Under the pieces are notes generated by a model. That model saw only the letters and a program-made list of their open reading frames with translations. It ran no database searches and was not told the DNA's origin. Made by a program: the position numbers and the translations under genes. A stretch of DNA of 64,000 nucleotides, taken from Virgisporangium aurantiacum. Lineage in GTDB: Bacteria > Actinomycetota > Actinomycetes > Mycobacteriales > Micromonosporaceae. Shown piece after piece: positions 1-8,994 of the stretch (position 1 is its first letter; each line of letters opens with the position of its first letter). The DNA lies in assembly GCF_016863635.1 (NCBI RefSeq), contig NZ_BOPG01000004.1:62001-126000 (forward strand), written 5' to 3'.

Positions 1-2828
1 GCGAGCGCGGCGGTGCCGGCGATGGTGACCGCGGCGGCGGCCAGGTCGGAGCCGTCGAGCCGCTGGCCGAAGAGGTCGCGGTCGTCCATGCTCGGCGCGA
101 GCCAGAGCAGCACCGCGCTGCCGAGCAGCAGCAGGGTCACGACGATGTCGATCGAGGTGGCCTCGTCGACCATCAGCGTCGCGATCGTGACCACGCCGGC
201 CGCGCCGATGGCACCGGACACGACCGGCGGGATCGCCCGTCGCTGCACTACCTGCACGAGGGCCGCGTAGGCGAGCACCACGGACAGCGCGAGGTACGTG
301 ACGACCAGCACCGCCGTCGCGGCGAACGCCTGATCGGAGGCCCGTCCGACGACGAACGTCGCGGTCAGCGCGGCCACCGCGCCGGGGAACGCGAACACCG
401 CGCCGCCGGCCGCGGCGTCGGACGCGATCCGGGCCACCATCTCGGCGCGGGGGTCGGTCACCGCGGCCCGCCGGCCGACCGCCACCGCGAACCCGGCGAT
501 CGTGATCGCGGCGAGCGTCAGCGCGGTCGCGGCCGGCCGGGTGAGGCTGGCGGCGGCCGCCCAGGCGCCGACGACGAGTGCCGCGCCGAGGCAGATCCAC
601 GCGGTACGGACGAGCGGGTCGGCGTTGTCGGCGGTGGCGCCGTAGCGGTCGGAGACCAGGTTCGTGGTCGGGCGGGGTTGGCCCCATCCGGCGTTGCGCT
701 GGCCGGGCCGGGTCGGGTCGACGGACACCCGGCCGGTCAACGGATCGATCGAGGGCCCGGGCGGGTCGACGTGGGCCGGCCGTGCCCTGGCGCGCTGGAC
801 CTGCCCGACGCGGGGGGCGGCAACGCCGGCCACGATCGCGGCGGCCACCGCGACCGCGGGCGTCATCACCCAGTTCAGGCCGAGGGCCGCGGGTGCGGTC
901 AGCGCCGTGAGCCCGCCGCCGATCACGATGGCGTCGATGCGGTACTCGACCGGGAACAGCAGCGCGGCGGCCACCGTGAGCAGCATCGCCGCTACCAGCA
1001 GTTGCCAGGTGGCGCCCTCGGACAGCGTCGACACGCGCTGTTCGTAGGTGGCGAGCTCGGTGTCCCAGTAGGGCGAGGCGGCGCGGATCGGCGCGCCGAT
1101 CGCCGGCATGGCCGCCCAGAGCCAGAACAGCACGGTGATGGCGCCGGCCAGGCCACCGGCGACCGCCGGGCCGCGGCGTGCGCGGTCCGGCAACACGGGG
1201 ACGAGCGCAGCGGCGAGCGCCACGGCCGCCGCCGTCACCACCAGGGCATATCCGGGGACGGACACCGTGGCGACCCGGGCCGCGGCGGCGACCACGGCGA
1301 GGACGGCGAGGCCGCCGGTCAGGTCGCCGATCGGCTGCCGCCGCTGCTGCAGGGCACCGGCCACCCCGACGGCCGCGGCCAGCACCAGCACGCCGGCGGC
1401 CCGCACCACCTGTGGCACGCCCTCGGCGTCGACGAGTGCGGTGGCGGCGAAGGCGATCGCGGCACCGTAGGCCAGCGCGAACAGCACCCAGGTGGCGTCG
1501 CGGAGGAACGCCGCCCAGCGCCCCTCGCCGGGCAGCACCACCAGCCCGAACAGCGGCCGGTCGGCCGACACGCCGAGCCCGAAGCCGAGGTTCATCACCG
1601 CGACGCCGACGAGCGCGAGCGCCCAGCCGGTCGGGTCGGTGACGAACGGGTACGCGAGCAGCGGGATCACCGGCTGCAGCACGAGCAGCGCGGCGTACCG
1701 GGGGGCCAGCAGGTGCGTCAGGTACTGGTACCCGAGGCAGATCGCGGCGGTGAGCATGCACACGATCGCGATGTAGATCTGCGGGGGCACGTCGGCGTCG
1801 CCGAACAGGCCCTCGGTGTACGCGACATACCCGTCGACCAGCACCATGAGCAGGGCGACCGCGGCGAGCGTCTCGGCGGTGGCGATCAGTTGCCGGCCGG
1901 CGAGGATCACCGGCAGCACGAGCAGAACGAGCGTGATCAGCCCGAGAACGGCCATCCGCCCGACGGCGCCGAGGCCGGTGAACGAGAACGTCATCACCAC
2001 CACGGCGGCGGCGAGCAGCAGCCCGCCGAGCGTGAACAGGACCGTCTGGTTGGCGCCGGAGCTGGTCTCGACGCCGACGAGCCGGCCGCGCGGCGCGCGG
2101 GGCCGGTCCTCGTCGAGCGGTGCCACGCGGCTGGACCCGGGCGGCAGACCGGGTTCGTCGAAATCGTCGTCGGAGCGGTTGCCGCCGAAGCCGGCCCGTA
2201 GCCGGCTGAGTCGGGCGAAGCGGGCGAAGCGGCCGGGTGGTTCGAACCGGCCGGGGCGAGCGGTCGGTCCGCCGCCGGTCTGGCCGGCTCCGGCGCGACC
2301 CGGCCCACCGCCGGGACCGCCGCTCGGGCCGCCACCGGGGCCGGTCGCCCGGCCCGGCCGGCGCCGCGCTGTTCCGCCCGGGCCACCCGGCGTTCCGGGG
2401 GCACCCGGCCGGCGCGGCGAGAATGTTCCGTCTGGCAGCGGGGTGCCGCCGGGACCGCCGGCGCGGGCCCGCGACCCCCGGGCAGCACTTTCCCGTGCCG
2501 CGCTTTCGCGCGCCGTGCTCTCCCGGGCCGCGCTGCCTTCCCAGGCCGCGCTGCCTTCCCGGGCCGGGCCGCTTTCCCGGGCCGGGCCGCTTTCCCGGGC
2601 CGGGCCGCCTTCCCAGACCGCGCCGTCGTCGTCCCAGGCGGGGGTCTCCTCCGCGGCTGCTCCGGACCGGCGGGGTGGAGTGCCGGGACGGAAGCCGGCG
2701 GCCGGCAGGTCGGTCTCGGGCCGCTCGCGTTCATCCGACGGCGGCGCGAGCTCCTCCCCGCAGTGGGGGCATTCGGTCGCGCCGCCGGGAACGGCTTCGG
2801 AACAGTACGGACACGGGTACGGCTCCAC
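1..2828 (-). CDS. Large multispanning membrane protein with N-terminal zinc ribbon (3' end outside window)
   Basis: The frame runs without a stop from a GTG at 2828 to the window edge, so the C-terminus is missing. A GGAGGGAG ribosome site sits just upstream. Residues 1-30 form a double CxxC zinc ribbon (CPYC then CPHC). Then comes a disordered linker with hexapeptide repeats and Pro/Gly-rich sequence, a short Arg/Phe-rich segment, and from about residue 230 onward one hydrophobic helix after another. This layout resembles the large actinobacterial membrane proteins labelled SCO7613 C-terminal domain proteins; the match is from memory. The function is unknown. It lies directly downstream of the deacetylase/glycosyltransferase gene on the same strand, so a cell-envelope role is possible but inferred. 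Confidence 0.75.
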   Translation of the reverse strand, partial: MEPYPCPYCSEAVPGGATECPHCGEELAPPSDERERPETDLPAAGFRPGTPPRRSGAAAEETPAWDDDGAVWEGGPARESGPARESGPAREGSAAWEGSAARESTARESAARESAARGSRARAGGPGGTPLPDGTFSPRRPGAPGTPGGPGGTARRRPGRATGPGGGPSGGPGGGPGRAGAGQTGGGPTARPGRFEPPGRFARFARLSRLRAGFGGNRSDDDFDEPGLPPGSSRVAPLDEDRPRAPRGRLVGVETSSGANQTVLFTLGGLLLAAAVVVMTFSFTGLGAVGRMAVLGLITLVLLVLPVILAGRQLIATAETLAAVALLMVLVDGYVAYTEGLFGDADVPPQIYIAIVCMLTAAICLGYQYLTHLLAPRYAALLVLQPVIPLLAYPFVTDPTGWALALVGVAVMNLGFGLGVSADRPLFGLVVLPGEGRWAAFLRDATWVLFALAYGAAIAFAATALVDAEGVPQVVRAAGVLVLAAAVGVAGALQQRRQPIGDLTGGLAVLAVVAAAARVATVSVPGYALVVTAAAVALAAALVPVLPDRARRGPAVAGGLAGAITVLFWLWAAMPAIGAPIRAASPYWDTELATYEQRVSTLSEGATWQLLVAAMLLTVAAALLFPVEYRIDAIVIGGGLTALTAPAALGLNWVMTPAVAVAAAIVAGVAAPRVGQVQRARARPAHVDPPGPSIDPLTGRVSVDPTRPGQRNAGWGQPRPTTNLVSDRYGATADNADPLVRTAWICLGAALVVGAWAAAASLTRPAATALTLAAITIAGFAVAVGRRAAVTDPRAEMVARIASDAAAGGAVFAFPGAVAALTATFVVGRASDQAFAATAVLVVTYLALSVVLAYAALVQVVQRRAIPPVVSGAIGAAGVVTIATLMVDEATSIDIVVTLLLLGSAVLLWLAPSMDDRDLFGQRLDGSDLAAAAVTIAGTAAL
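2485..2620. repeat. In-frame tandem repeat, 15- and 18-bp units
   Basis: Three 15-bp units are followed by five imperfect 18-bp units. On the minus strand they encode repeats of the type G-P-A-R-E-S and S-A-A-R-E in the linker of the membrane protein. All units are multiples of 3 bp, so copy-number change would not break the frame. Confidence 0.8.
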
Positions 2829-2872
2829 GCGGCTCCCTCCCGTGTCCGTGCGACTACCGCACGCCCACCCCT

Positions 2873-5200
2873 CTAAGGAAGAATGCCGTGTTTCGACGCC
2901 TGAAGGAAGTCTTGATCGCGTTGTGCCGGCGTGTCGAGATACGGGTTCGGTGGCACGCTGGCGACGCCGCGCGGGCGGACCAGCTCATCGCGTCCCAGAG
3001 GTTTTACCGGATCCACCACCGGAACCGGCCCGACTGCCTGGACCCCCGCGACGCCGGCCGGCGCGGCGGCGCCCGCCGTGCCAGCCCGGCGGAGCTTGTG
3101 CCAGCGCAGCCGGGCGCCGGTGAGCGCGGTGAGCCCGCTCTGGATCAGCACCAGGTACATCAGCTGCCGGTAGGCGAACTGCTGCAGCGGCAGCGTCCAG
3201 AGCGGTGTGATCTTCTCCTTGTCCAGGCGGAACGCCACCGCCGCGGTGATGAACTGCAGGCCGAGCATGGCCACCCAGGCGATCAGGGTCTCCGTGCGGT
3301 CGAGGAACACCAGGCCGTAGATGGTGAGCAGGTCGATGATCGGCGCCAGCAGCGGCAACGCCACCCCGAACAGCGCCACCAGCGGCAGCCCCAGCCGGCC
3401 GAACCGGCCCGACGGCCCGCGCTCGAACAGCGACCGGCGGTGCTTCCACATCGCCTGCATGGTGCCGTAGCTCCAGCGGTACCGCTGGGTCCACAGTTGC
3501 TTGAGCGTGGCCGGCGCCTCGGTCCACGCCCGGGCCCGCTCCTCGTAGACGACGTGCCAGCCCGCGCGGCACAGCGCCATGGTGACGTCGGTGTCCTCGG
3601 CGAGCGTGTCGTGGCTCATGCCGCCGGCCTGCCGTAGCGCCTCGCGGCGGAACGCGCCGATCGCGCCCGGGATCGTGGGCATGCACCGGAGGACGTCGTA
3701 GAGGCGACGGTCGAGGTTGAACCCGATCACGTACTCGATGTGCTGCCAGCGCGCCACCAGGCTGTTCCGGTTGCCGACCTTCACGTTGCCGGCGACCGCG
3801 CCGACGCGCGGATCGGCGAACGGCTGCACCAGGCGGCCGAGCGACTCCTTCTCGAACACGGTGTCGCCGTCGACCATCACGATCAGGTCGTGGCTGGCCA
3901 TCGCGACGCCCGTGTTCAGCGCGTTCGGCTTGCCGCCGTTGGGGATCTGCACCACCCGCACGTTCGGCAGCCGCATGGCCCGGACCAGGTCGGCGGTGTT
4001 GTCGCTCGAACCGTCGTCGACGACGACCACCTCGATGCCGCCCACGTGGTCGCCGTCGGCGAGCGACTGCACGGCCGCCTCGATGCCCTCCTTCTCGTTG
4101 TAGGCGGGCACGATCACCGACACCGGGTCGGTCACCCTTTCGCCCCAGGTCCAGGCCGCGCTGCGCCGCTTGCGGGCGTGCCGGGCGGCGAGGATGAACA
4201 GCGCCAGCGTCCGGATCACGGTCAGCACACCGACGATCAGGAACAGCACCGCCAGGCCGTCGACGGTGCGGTCGGCGATGGCGATGGCCGCCGTCAGCGC
4301 GAGGCCGCGCTGCCGGTCGGCCTTGGTCGCGGGCGGATTTCCGGTGACGGACGCAGCGGGGTCACGTTCGGCGAGGGTGCGGCGCAGCCCCTCGGAGACG
4401 GTGACGAACTCGAATCCCCGCTCCTTCATCAGCGGAATGAACCGGTCGAGCGCCGCAACCGTCTGCGACCGGTCACCGCCCGCGTCGTGCCACAGCGAGA
4501 TGGTGCCGGTGTCGTCCTTCGGTGTGGCATTGTCGAGGATCTTGTCGACGCCGGGCTTGTCCCAGTCCTTCGAGTCGGACTCGGTGAGGATCGTGAGGTA
4601 GCCGAGCCGGCCGGCGTCCCGCATCAGCTTCCAGTTGTCGTCGTCGATCGCGGCGACCGTCGACGAGTACGGGAACCGCAGCAGGTTCGACTTGCGCCCG
4701 GTGGCGTTCACGATCGCCATCTGGGTGTGCGAGTACTCGATCTCCTGCCGCCACTTCGGCAGCTTGACCATCTGCGGGTGGGTGAAGCTGTGGATGCCGA
4801 TCTCGTCGCCGGCGTTCACGAGGTCACGCACGATGTCGGGGTGCCGGGCCACCTGGGTGCCCACCACGAAAAACGTGCCCGGCACGTGGTGCTTGCGCAG
4901 CACGGCGTCGATCGCCGGGGTCCACCGCGGGTCGGGCCCGTCGTCGAACGTGAGCGCGATCGTCTTCTTCGGCAGCCCGAACGAGCGCGCCCCACCGTTG
5001 GTGGTGTCGATGATCGGGCCACCGTTCTGCACCGACTCCGGAATCGAGCCGGCGCCGCCGGTCGTCTGCGCGGAGTCGGGCGCGAACTCGGCGTTCACGT
5101 ACGCCTCGACCATGAGGACGCTGGCGAACATCAACACGAGCACGGTAGCGACCACCCAGCGGCCGATCCCGAACCGCGACCGGCCCGGCGGAGCGGTCAC
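2873..5200 (-). CDS. Bifunctional polysaccharide deacetylase (NodB) / family 2 glycosyltransferase
   Basis: A predicted 775-residue membrane enzyme. A signal-anchor helix at about 13-33 is followed by a NodB deacetylase domain with TFDDGP (84-89), HSFTH (137-141), RFPYS (175-179), DSKDW (209-213) and SLWHD (235-239), so all five motifs are present. After a helix near 315-340 comes a processive GT2 domain with DDGSSD (395-400), DGDT (444-447), EDTD (535-538) and QRYRW (572-576), then C-terminal membrane helices. These are the motifs of hyaluronan, chitin and cellulose synthase-like enzymes, so it probably makes and N-deacetylates an extracellular polymer. The start is the GTG whose GTGA overlaps the stop of the preceding gene, indicating coupling. 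Substrate sugar is not decidable from sequence. Confidence 0.9.
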
Positions 5201-6153
5201 TCCCGGCCCCGGACGCGCCGGCCGGGCACGGTGACCGACTCGGCCCACTTGTTGGCCGGCGCCGCGGCCACCTGCGCGGGCGGCGCCGCAGGTTCGACGG
5301 GCGCTGGTGCCGGCTGACTGACCGGCGTGGATGAGCCGGAGCCGGTGCCCGCGCCGGAGCCGGTGCCCGTGCTTCCGGTGCCGGTTCCGGTGCCTGAGCT
5401 TCCGGTGCCCGTGCTTCCGGTGCCGGCGCCCGTTCCGGACCCGCCGGTTCCCGTCCCGGCGCCGGTGCCGCCGGTGCCGGATCCGGTCTGAGTGCCGGTC
5501 GTGGTGGTGCCTCCGGTCCCCACGCCGGTGCCCTCCGGCACGGGTCCGATCGGCGCGGTCGTTCCGCCACCGCCCGTTCCGCCTCCGCCGGTGCTGCCTC
5601 CGCCCGTGCCGCCCCCGCCAGTGCCACCCCCGCCGGCGCCTCCGCCGGGCGGCGGGACCTCGCTCGGCGCCGGGTTCGCCGACGGCGCTGTCGACGGCGG
5701 TTGCGAGGCCGGTGGCTGCGACGGCGCGGCCGACGGGGCGACGGTCCCCTCGGGAACGGCGGGCCCGGGCGGGCCGACCGCCGGTACGCCGGACTGCCCG
5801 GCCTGGCCCGGCTGCCCCGGTGATGCCCCGCCACCCTGGCCGGGGCGGCGCCCGTCACCCGGCCGGTCGGTGCCGGTCGGTACCGGCTGCGCCGGTTCGG
5901 GCGTCGACTCCGCCGCGGGGCGGTTGATCAGCAGATCGGGGAACGGCAGCAGCGTCTCGGGGTTGAGCGGTCCACCGGCGAGACTCATCGCCACCATTCC
6001 GGCGTAGGTGAGGCTCAACCCACCGATGCCGTAGAAGGCGAAGCGGATTCGCCGGCCCCGACGGCCGGTGGAATCCACGAATACCGGAGCGGATTCGTCC
6101 GGCAGTTCGAGCGGACGGGTTTCATCGTCGTCGGTGGGTTTTTCGGGAGTCAC
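5197..6153 (-). CDS. Membrane-anchored Gly/Thr/Ser/Pro-rich low-complexity protein
   Basis: No known family recognised. A cytoplasmic acidic stretch and a basic RRGRR patch precede one hydrophobic helix at about 37-60. The rest of the 318 residues is low complexity: a Pro/Ser/Ala section and then long runs of GTGGG and GTGSG type, with a short ordered-looking tail. The topology suggests an extracellular, flexible, possibly wall-spanning stalk. A TATGTT hexamer lies exactly 6 nt before the GTG at 6153, so that start is chosen over upstream alternatives. It overlaps the deacetylase/glycosyltransferase gene by 4 bp and is probably a partner of it; this is inference. Confidence 0.7.
5325..5650. 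repeat. Low-complexity repeats encoding Gly/Thr/Ser runs
   Basis: Imperfect 6- to 18-bp repeats of the kind ggtgccggtgccc and ccgcccgtgccg. They encode the Gly-Thr-Gly and Gly-Gly-Gly-Thr runs of the anchored protein. Confidence 0.8.
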
Positions 6154-6159
6154 GCCGGA

Positions 6160-6165
6160 AACATA
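6160..6165 (-). promoter_or_regulatory. Putative -10 element TATGTT of a leaderless mRNA
   Basis: TATGTT ends 6 nt before the GTG start at 6153, and no Shine-Dalgarno sequence is present. It lies in a locally AT-rich stretch (6160-6240). No clear -35 box. Confidence 0.45.
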
Positions 6166-6333
6166 GAAAACGGCGCCTAAACGAATCCAGGAAACCGATC
6201 TATTAGGTACCCGTAACCTTTTCCTAAATCTCCGGCAACAGCACTTATTGAAATGCGTCGGTACGCATTTCACCCTTTCGGGATAGGCCGGCGAGCCCAC
6301 CCGGATGAACGGATCGGCCGCACATGAACAGCC

Positions 6334-7743
6334 CTACCGACCCATTCCCCGGTACTCCCAGCCGGCGCGCCGCCACAGCACCGGATCGAGGCAGTTGCGC
6401 CCGTCGATCACGACCTTGCCGGCGACGAGGTCGGCCAGAACCACCGGATCGGCGGTGCGGAACTCTTCCCACTCGGTGAGGACGCACACCAGGTCGGCGC
6501 CGGTGACCGCCTCCACCACCGAGCGGGCGTAGGTGGCGTCGGGCACCTCGCGGCGGGCGTTCTCCATGCCCTCCGGGTCGTACACCGACACCTCGGCACC
6601 GCTGCGGCTGAGCTTGCGCACCACCGACAGCGCCGGCGAGTCGCGCACGTCGTCCGAATTGGGTTTGAACGTGGCGCCGAGCACCGCGACCTTCACGCCG
6701 CTGAGGTCGGGACCGGCCGGGCCGAAGGGCCGGCCGAGCAGTTCGGCCGCGAGCTGCACCACCCACTGCCGCCGCCGCTGGTTGATGAGGTCGACCTCGT
6801 GCAGGAACCGCAGCGCCTCACCGACGCCGAGTTCCTGGGCCCGGGCCTGGAACGCGCGGATGTCCTTGGGCAGGCAACCGCCGCCGAAGCCGACGCCCGC
6901 GCGCAGGAACCGGTTGCCGATGCGGGCGTCGTAGCCGATCGCGCGGGCGAGTTGCGTGACGTCGGCGCCGGCCGGTTCGCAGATCTCCGCCATCGCGTTG
7001 ATGAACGAGATCTTGGTGGCGAGGAACGCGTTCGCGGCCACCTTCACGAGTTCGGCGGTGGCGAAGTTGGTGATCACCACCGGCACCTCGCGGTCTTCGG
7101 TGGTGGCGAGGTCGAAGACGCCCTTGTGCGCGGCGAACAGCATGTCGTTGGCCCACTCGCTGCGGACGCCGAAGATGACCCGGTTCGGGCGCAGCACGTC
7201 TTCGACCGCGTGCCCCTCCTGGAGGAACTCGGGGCTCCAGGCGACCTCGACGTGCGACCCCGCCGGCGCGTGCCGGCGCACCAGTTGCTCGACCCACTCC
7301 GCGGTGCCGACGGGCACCGTCGACTTGCCCGCGATCAGCGCCTTGCGGTGCAGGTGCGGCGCCAGCCGCACGACCACGTCTTCGACGTGGGAGAGGTCGG
7401 CGGCCATGCTGTCGGCGCGCTGCGGGGTGCCGACGCAGATGAAGTGGATGTCGCCGAAGGCCGCGGCCTCCTCGATCGAGGTGGTGAACTTCAGCCGGCC
7501 GGCCGCCAGGTTCTTGCGCAGCATCTCGTCGAGGCCGGGCTCGTGGAACGGCACCTCGCCGCCGGTGAGCTTGGCGATCTTGGGCGCATCGACGTCGTAG
7601 CCGAGCACCTCGTACCCGAGTTCGGCGAAGCAGACCGCGTACGTGGCACCGAGGTAGCCGGTGCCGAGGAAGGTCAGCCGGGGCCGCGCCGCGCCGGACG
7701 GCACCGCCAACGTGGCGCCCGGCGTCATGTACTGGATCGTCAC
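6334..7743 (-). CDS. ugd: UDP-glucose 6-dehydrogenase
   Basis: Oxidises UDP-glucose to UDP-glucuronate with NAD. The Rossmann motif GTGYLG is at 27-32 and the catalytic Cys is Cys290 in FGGGCLPKD. The C-terminal UDP-binding domain is complete; 469 residues is slightly long for the family because of an N-terminal extension of about 20 residues. In-frame starts at 7752 (GTG), 7743 (GTG) and 7728 (ATG) are all possible; 7743 is a compromise. A TATCCT hexamer at 7786-7791 would give an untranslated leader of roughly 30 nt. It is followed on the same strand by the anchored protein and the GT2/deacetylase fusion, so UDP-glucuronate may be a precursor for their polymer (inference). Confidence 0.92.
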   Translation of the reverse strand: MTIQYMTPGATLAVPSGAARPRLTFLGTGYLGATYAVCFAELGYEVLGYDVDAPKIAKLTGGEVPFHEPGLDEMLRKNLAAGRLKFTTSIEEAAAFGDIHFICVGTPQRADSMAADLSHVEDVVVRLAPHLHRKALIAGKSTVPVGTAEWVEQLVRRHAPAGSHVEVAWSPEFLQEGHAVEDVLRPNRVIFGVRSEWANDMLFAAHKGVFDLATTEDREVPVVITNFATAELVKVAANAFLATKISFINAMAEICEPAGADVTQLARAIGYDARIGNRFLRAGVGFGGGCLPKDIRAFQARAQELGVGEALRFLHEVDLINQRRRQWVVQLAAELLGRPFGPAGPDLSGVKVAVLGATFKPNSDDVRDSPALSVVRKLSRSGAEVSVYDPEGMENARREVPDATYARSVVEAVTGADLVCVLTEWEEFRTADPVVLADLVAGKVVIDGRNCLDPVLWRRAGWEYRGMGR

Positions 7744-7848: not shown

Positions 7849-8994
7849 GTGTTCAACGTCTACGAACTGCCCGAGGAGCATCGGGAGCTGCGTGACGCGG
7901 TGCGGGAGCTGTGCACCGGGAAGGTGGCGCCCAACGCCGCCGCCGCCGACGAACTGGCCGAGTTTCCGCAGGCCTCCTACGACGCCCTGCGGGCCGGCGA
8001 CTTCCACGCCCCGCACGTCCCCGAGGAGTACGGCGGGGTCGGAGCCGACGCGCTGGCCACCGCGATCGTGATCGAGGAGGTGGCCCGGGCGTGCGCGTCG
8101 TCGTCGCTCATTCCCGCGGTCAACAAGCTGGGGTCCCTGCCGCTGCTCCTGGCCGGCACCGACGACCTCAAGCGCCGCTACCTCACCCCGCTCGCCGCCG
8201 GTGACGCGATGTTCTCGTACTGCCTGTCGGAGCCCGAGGCCGGCAGCGACGCCGTCTCGATGAAGACGCGCGCGGTTCCCGACGGCGACGGCTGGCTGCT
8301 CAACGGCGTCAAGCGGTGGATCACCAACGCCGGGGTGTCGGAGTACTACACGGTGTTCGCCGTCACCGAGCCGGACGCCCGTTCGAAGGGCATCTCGGCG
8401 TTCGTGGTCGAGAAGGGCGACCCCGGGGTCAGCTTCGGCGCGCCGGAGAAGAAGCTGGGCATCAAGGGCTCGCCGACGCGCGAGGTCTACCTCGACAACG
8501 TCCGCCTGCCCGCCGACCGCATGATCGGCGCACCCGGCACCGGTTTCGGCACCGCGATGCGCACGCTCGACCACACCCGCGTCACGATCGCGGCGCAGGC
8601 GGTGGGCATCGCACAGGGCGCGCTCGACTACGCGACGAGCTACATGCAGGAGCGCAAGCAGTTCGGCCGGCGGATCGCCGACTTCCAGGGCCTGCAGTTC
8701 ATGCTCGCCGACATGGCCATGCAACTCGACGCGGCCCGCCAGCTCACCTACGTCGCGGCGGCGAAGAGCGAACGCAACGATCCCGACCTGACCTACTTCG
8801 GCGCCGCCGCCAAGTGCTTCGCGTCCGACGCAGCCATGAAGATCACCACCGACGCCGTGCAGCTCCTCGGCGGCTACGGCTACACGCGCGACTTCCCCCT
8901 CGAGCGCATGATGCGGGATGCCAAGATCACCCAGATCTACGAGGGCACCAACCAGGTCCAGCGCGTGGTGATGGCGCGGCAACTGCTCGGCTGA
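7849..8994 (+). CDS. Acyl-CoA dehydrogenase
   Basis: A 381-residue FAD flavoprotein for alpha,beta-dehydrogenation of acyl-CoA in the cytoplasm. N-terminal helical, middle beta and C-terminal helical domains are all present. The FAD-binding signature is seen around CLSEPEAGSDA, and the catalytic base is Glu365 in QIYEGTNQ, as in short- and branched-chain enzymes. The GTG start has no ribosome site but has a TATCCT hexamer 6 nt upstream, so the mRNA is probably leaderless. It stands alone, divergent from ugd, with its stop 3 bp from the stop of the convergent gene. The acyl chain cannot be told from sequence. Confidence 0.95.
   Translation: MFNVYELPEEHRELRDAVRELCTGKVAPNAAAADELAEFPQASYDALRAGDFHAPHVPEEYGGVGADALATAIVIEEVARACASSSLIPAVNKLGSLPLLLAGTDDLKRRYLTPLAAGDAMFSYCLSEPEAGSDAVSMKTRAVPDGDGWLLNGVKRWITNAGVSEYYTVFAVTEPDARSKGISAFVVEKGDPGVSFGAPEKKLGIKGSPTREVYLDNVRLPADRMIGAPGTGFGTAMRTLDHTRVTIAAQAVGIAQGALDYATSYMQERKQFGRRIADFQGLQFMLADMAMQLDAARQLTYVAAAKSERNDPDLTYFGAAAKCFASDAAMKITTDAVQLLGGYGYTRDFPLERMMRDAKITQIYEGTNQVQRVVMARQLLG

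Follow-up and report, generated by a model that had tools for sequence, protein, structure and literature searches.

What does a polysaccharide synthase make when the gene for UDP-glucose 6-dehydrogenase lies nearby? The question is raised by four genes in Virgisporangium aurantiacum, all on the minus strand within positions 1-7743 of the window (the whole 64,000-nucleotide stretch of DNA analyzed here). The original prediction treated them as one possible locus for a polymer containing uronic acid, supplied by ugd, and did not know the combination as a described system. Its account of four same-strand genes, including their domains, their strands, and a GTGA coupling, was borne out in full. 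The region reads as follows.

7849..8994, plus strand: acyl-CoA dehydrogenase, divergent from ugd (Pfam, synteny)
6334..7743, minus strand: ugd, UDP-glucose 6-dehydrogenase (TIGR03026, synteny in relatives)
6154..6333, minus strand: AT-rich intergenic region between ugd and matA (GC profile)
5197..6153, minus strand: probable matA, with a cytoplasmic conserved motif, one predicted transmembrane (TM) helix, and a long Pro/Gly/Thr/Ser-rich extracytoplasmic tail (motif and TM helix in relatives, MatA profile, start inferred from relatives)
2873..5200, minus strand: probable matB, with the predicted order N-terminal TM, CE4 deacetylase, TM, processive GT2, C-terminal TM helices (Pfam/NCBIfam, alignment, AlphaFold model, fold matches)
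1..2828, minus strand: 5' part of a polytopic membrane protein (weak zinc-ribbon match, helices, synteny)

The source genome (G000) has an estimated contamination of 9%; the same gene arrangement recurs in a congener, G199.

The two middle genes, at 5197-6153 and 2873-5200, are very probably matA and matB, a system for a PNAG-type surface polymer, with ugd and the polytopic gene forming a separate block. The pair corresponds to a system already described, MatAB (PMC4391728, PMC5972031). The domains, motifs, MatAB homology, co-occurrence, and synteny that identify the pair were computed here, while the identity of the polymer and its role in adhesion come from work on S. lividans. There, MatAB makes a PNAG-like polymer, as judged by tests with mAb F598 and dispersin B, and is needed for pellet formation and adhesion to glass (PMC5972031).

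MatB joins an N-terminal NodB/CE4 domain (PF01522, 111 bits) and a C-terminal PgaC-like processive GT2 domain (PF13641, 123 bits) in one polypeptide. The GT2 part carries the motifs DD, DxD, ED, and QRYRW, and in the MatB alignment neither domain shows any variation in its catalytic motifs. The best-scoring NCBIfam model is PgaC/IcaA, which is matched by 12 of 12 aligned members, and the protein is 34% identical to Escherichia coli PgaC over 272 aa. Its score against the PgaC/IcaA equivalog TIGR03937, 187 bits, falls far below the curated cut-off of 422 bits, so that linkage and sugar, including the choice between beta-1,6 and beta-1,4, are not settled by sequence. In an AlphaFold model (pLDDT 79.7; 12 sequences), the deacetylase part matches PgdA-type deacetylases (Z 27). 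Among solved structures, the GT2/TM part comes closest to hyaluronan synthases (Z about 32; 2.7-2.9 A across some 370 residues, at 16-20% identity), a comparison that is one-sided in that matching by sequence brought up no solved PNAG synthase. The likeness is that of a common processive GT2 fold, which leaves the sugar unfixed.

How close is this protein to the MatB of streptomycetes? It is 55% identical over 682 residues to that of Streptomyces coeruleorubidus, a homology that extends over the full length. In that species, a tmRNA is found on the same fragment as matB, and the ORF downstream reads as a putative acyltransferase-type membrane protein resembling SCO2961. The gene for tmRNA likewise belongs to the neighborhood of ftsEX and the mat locus, and this tmRNA-linked locus is taken as the canonical one. 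In an actinobacterial MatB tree, built by a quick method with support by SH-aLRT only, the V. aurantiacum protein clusters with the MatB of two congeners, of G253, and of a Dactylosporangium, inside a Micromonosporaceae clade.

The anchored, Gly/Pro/Thr-rich protein is encoded directly upstream of MatB. Its likely start is the GTG at 6153, because relatives begin there and the preceding stretch is AT-rich. At its other end, the stop codon TGA (5199-5197) overlaps the matB start codon GTG (5200-5198) in the sequence GTGA (5200-5197), and this is the only overlapping pair among the four genes. matA and matB are likewise translationally coupled in S. lividans (PMC4391728). A candidate ORF immediately precedes MatB at 103 loci. 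At 79 of them it has a TM helix followed by a tail rich in P/G/S/T/A, and in nearly all of these 79, PVFVDx[ST]GRR comes right ahead of the helix; L213 is an obvious false positive. Of the 80 named loci, several of them truncated, 51 show the motif upstream of MatB. Across MatA proteins, the motif is near-invariant and predicted to sit at the inner side of the membrane; the disordered tail, on the outer side, varies greatly. Published work reports MatA to be without known domains and states its role as unclear, and literature searches turned up nothing pertinent on either the PVFVD motif or the name of the CE4-GT2 fusion.

A 60-position MatA profile was built from rows at MatB-linked loci and scanned genome-wide, not just at those loci, against 121 Micromonosporaceae genomes, one per species. 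It matches the V. aurantiacum genome at E=4.9e-26. MatA and MatB are present in exactly the same 73 of the 121 genomes (p about 7e-35 by a hypergeometric test that takes no account of phylogeny), and for 110 of the 116 MatA copies there is a MatB copy within 6 kb. Of the 6 matches at a distance from MatB, four were inspected. One, L244, adjoins a short MatB fragment and is a decayed matAB copy; the other three had no MatB-like match in the stretch examined. The anchored protein can accordingly be identified, from sequence and distribution, as the probable MatA, an obligate partner of MatB. The original prediction had proposed a partnership and had named fusions lacking the anchored protein nearby as evidence to the contrary; the co-occurrence in 73 of 73 genomes speaks for the partnership.

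The same cannot be said of ugd and the large membrane gene. UGD matches TIGR03026 at 413 bits (cut-off 190) and Pfam PF03721, PF00984, and PF03720. The polytopic protein starts at 2828 and runs about 2.5 kb past the window, to about position 59453 of contig C4, giving a full length of 1791 aa with about 43 predicted hydrophobic helices. In the part that lies in the window, no Pfam or NCBIfam model scores above its cut-off, the match to the zinc ribbon PF13240 being weak at 17 bits. In the 12 relatives inspected, ugd stands beside a zinc-ribbon membrane gene; the other neighbor of ugd is usually an acyl-CoA dehydrogenase gene, and purE/purK are often near. In 11 of the 12, ugd and the zinc ribbon are 118-269 bp apart with matAB absent between them, as against 3.5 kb in the window; no zinc-ribbon pattern was found in the twelfth. 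The two genes belong to a separate block, acyl-CoA dehydrogenase-ugd-polytopic protein, in which the polytopic gene keeps its place beside ugd across Micromonosporaceae. They do not belong to the matAB unit, and the cluster is matAB set between two neighbors unrelated to it. As it adjoins ugd in relatives without matAB, the polytopic gene was rejected as a part of the system.

Could ugd nonetheless feed UDP-glucuronate to the fusion, yielding a partly de-N-acetylated, uronic-acid-containing polymer like hyaluronan or heparosan? The gene is adjacent and co-oriented in both G000 and G199, and hyaluronan synthases are, as mentioned, the nearest solved folds. A locus of that kind would be expected to keep its ugd, but among the ugd matches listed, a ranking that stops short of distant homologues, only 2 of 118 MatB copies, those of G000 and G199 in one genus, lie within 20 kb of one. 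The remaining 116, with no listed ugd within that distance, represent what the original prediction had named as evidence against itself, namely, fusions without ugd nearby. A third congener, G170, carries matAB on one contig and ugd on another, and among the 80 named MatB loci, a single one has a ugd-like gene, 40% identical and on the opposite strand. ugd is near-universal (116 of 121 genomes), with or without matB, and its co-occurrence with matB is therefore uninformative by itself. The complete genomes G175 and G217 have MatB and lack an orthologue of the window ugd, retaining a relative that is 39% identical. With the best sequence family of MatB being PgaC/IcaA and close ugd linkage confined to two congeners, this reading was rejected as highly improbable. 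What stands of the earlier proposal is the surface polysaccharide system itself, to which a deacetylase-bearing processive GT2 and its obligate, low-complexity anchored partner point; a role for ugd and a uronic acid content find no support.

A subtler alternative keeps the system and changes the linkage, having MatB make a beta-1,4, chitin- or chitosan-like polymer. The CE4 domain does resemble enzymes that act on beta-1,4 substrates (PgdA, NodB), and in G253 a gene for a GH46 chitosanase (L147:11284-12216) directly follows matAB. The GT2 domain, however, scores higher with PgaC/IcaA than with NodC (187 versus 84 bits). In Streptomyces, moreover, the product is recognized by anti-PNAG antibody and attacked by dispersin B, while calcofluor staining of beta-1,4 glycans is independent of matAB (PMC5972031). 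A beta-1,4 product is thus unlikely, if less so than a uronic acid polymer.

The preferred reading, a MatAB system for a PNAG-type polymer, would work as follows in this strain. The cytoplasmic GT2 domain of MatB would polymerize GlcNAc from UDP-GlcNAc, most likely into a beta-1,6, PNAG-type chain, and the chain would be threaded through MatB's own TM helices. Outside, the CE4 domain would remove some of the N-acetyl groups, producing a cationic, adhesive coat through which hyphae could clump together and adhere to surfaces. MatA would be the obligate single-TM partner, holding its PVFVDxxGRR motif at the cytoplasmic side of the membrane and projecting its disordered tail into or through the wall. 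Tentatively, and with the odds somewhat against it, one might go further and picture MatA as a subunit that the synthase cannot do without. Its membrane-adjacent PVFVDx[ST]GRR motif would touch or gate the GT2 domain of MatB, and its variable, disordered tail would carry the polymer, or the whole complex, across the wall. MatA would then be an actinobacterial equivalent of PgaD/IcaD that works on a principle of its own. In any case, the conserved motif offers a handle for testing the role of MatA in PNAG synthesis.

Comparison with known systems places the pair among its relatives. Like MatAB of S. lividans and S. coelicolor (SCO2963-SCO2962), it consists of a TM-anchored MatA followed by a translationally coupled NodB/CE4-GT2 fusion, and the two MatA proteins have the arrangement PVFVDxxGRR-TM-low-complexity tail in common. 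PgaCD/IcaAD with PgaB/IcaB offer the same PgaC-like GT2, deacetylase, and membrane partner; in the window, however, synthase and deacetylase form one polypeptide, MatA is not recognizably PgaD/IcaD, and there is no PgaA porin. Class I hyaluronan synthases are alike in GT2/TM fold at low identity, whereas MatB has a fused deacetylase and no consistent ugd linkage. The matAB of the window is an actinobacterial version of a known polymer pair, with no support for uronic acid.

Where the pair differs from that of Streptomyces is in its site. The published position of the mat locus is near ftsEX (PMC4391728); here it lies between ugd and the polytopic gene rather than in the ssrA/ftsEX region, and no SCO2961-like acyltransferase gene follows matB in the window. 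In the ugd-matA gap of about 180 bp, GC falls to 45%, compared with about 72% in the window. An AT-rich element upstream of matA, AGGAAAAGGTTACGGGTACCTAATAG, is identical in G199 and has a weaker likeness upstream of the G170 matA, at a different chromosomal site. A consensus promoter scan of the gap found no sigma-70 consensus; from its composition and conservation, we infer that matAB probably has its own promoter in 6154..6333. The simpler reading is that matAB was placed into the ugd-polytopic block in an ancestor of the two sequenced congeners, as opposed to being lost in all other relatives.

Outside Streptomyces, the mat pair appears as a self-contained unit: its site varies by genus, while MatA and MatB stay together. 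With the sites varying in this way, a neighboring ugd should not be taken as a clue to the chemistry of the polymer. The neighbors of matAB in relatives include an MFS transporter, a GH46 gene, an aminotransferase-V and mnmA pair, PMT, a GAF kinase, and a phosphotransacetylase, and no further conserved partner gene was found among them. In one genus, all five genomes (G154, G192, G210, G224, and G237) have a second ugd paralogue, about 62% identical, 22-28 kb from matAB (L149:610-1917 and L150 are examples); it is consistent within the genus and not adjacent to matAB. The chitosanase gene beside matAB in a single relative, G253, is a hint on either the linkage of the polymer or its turnover.
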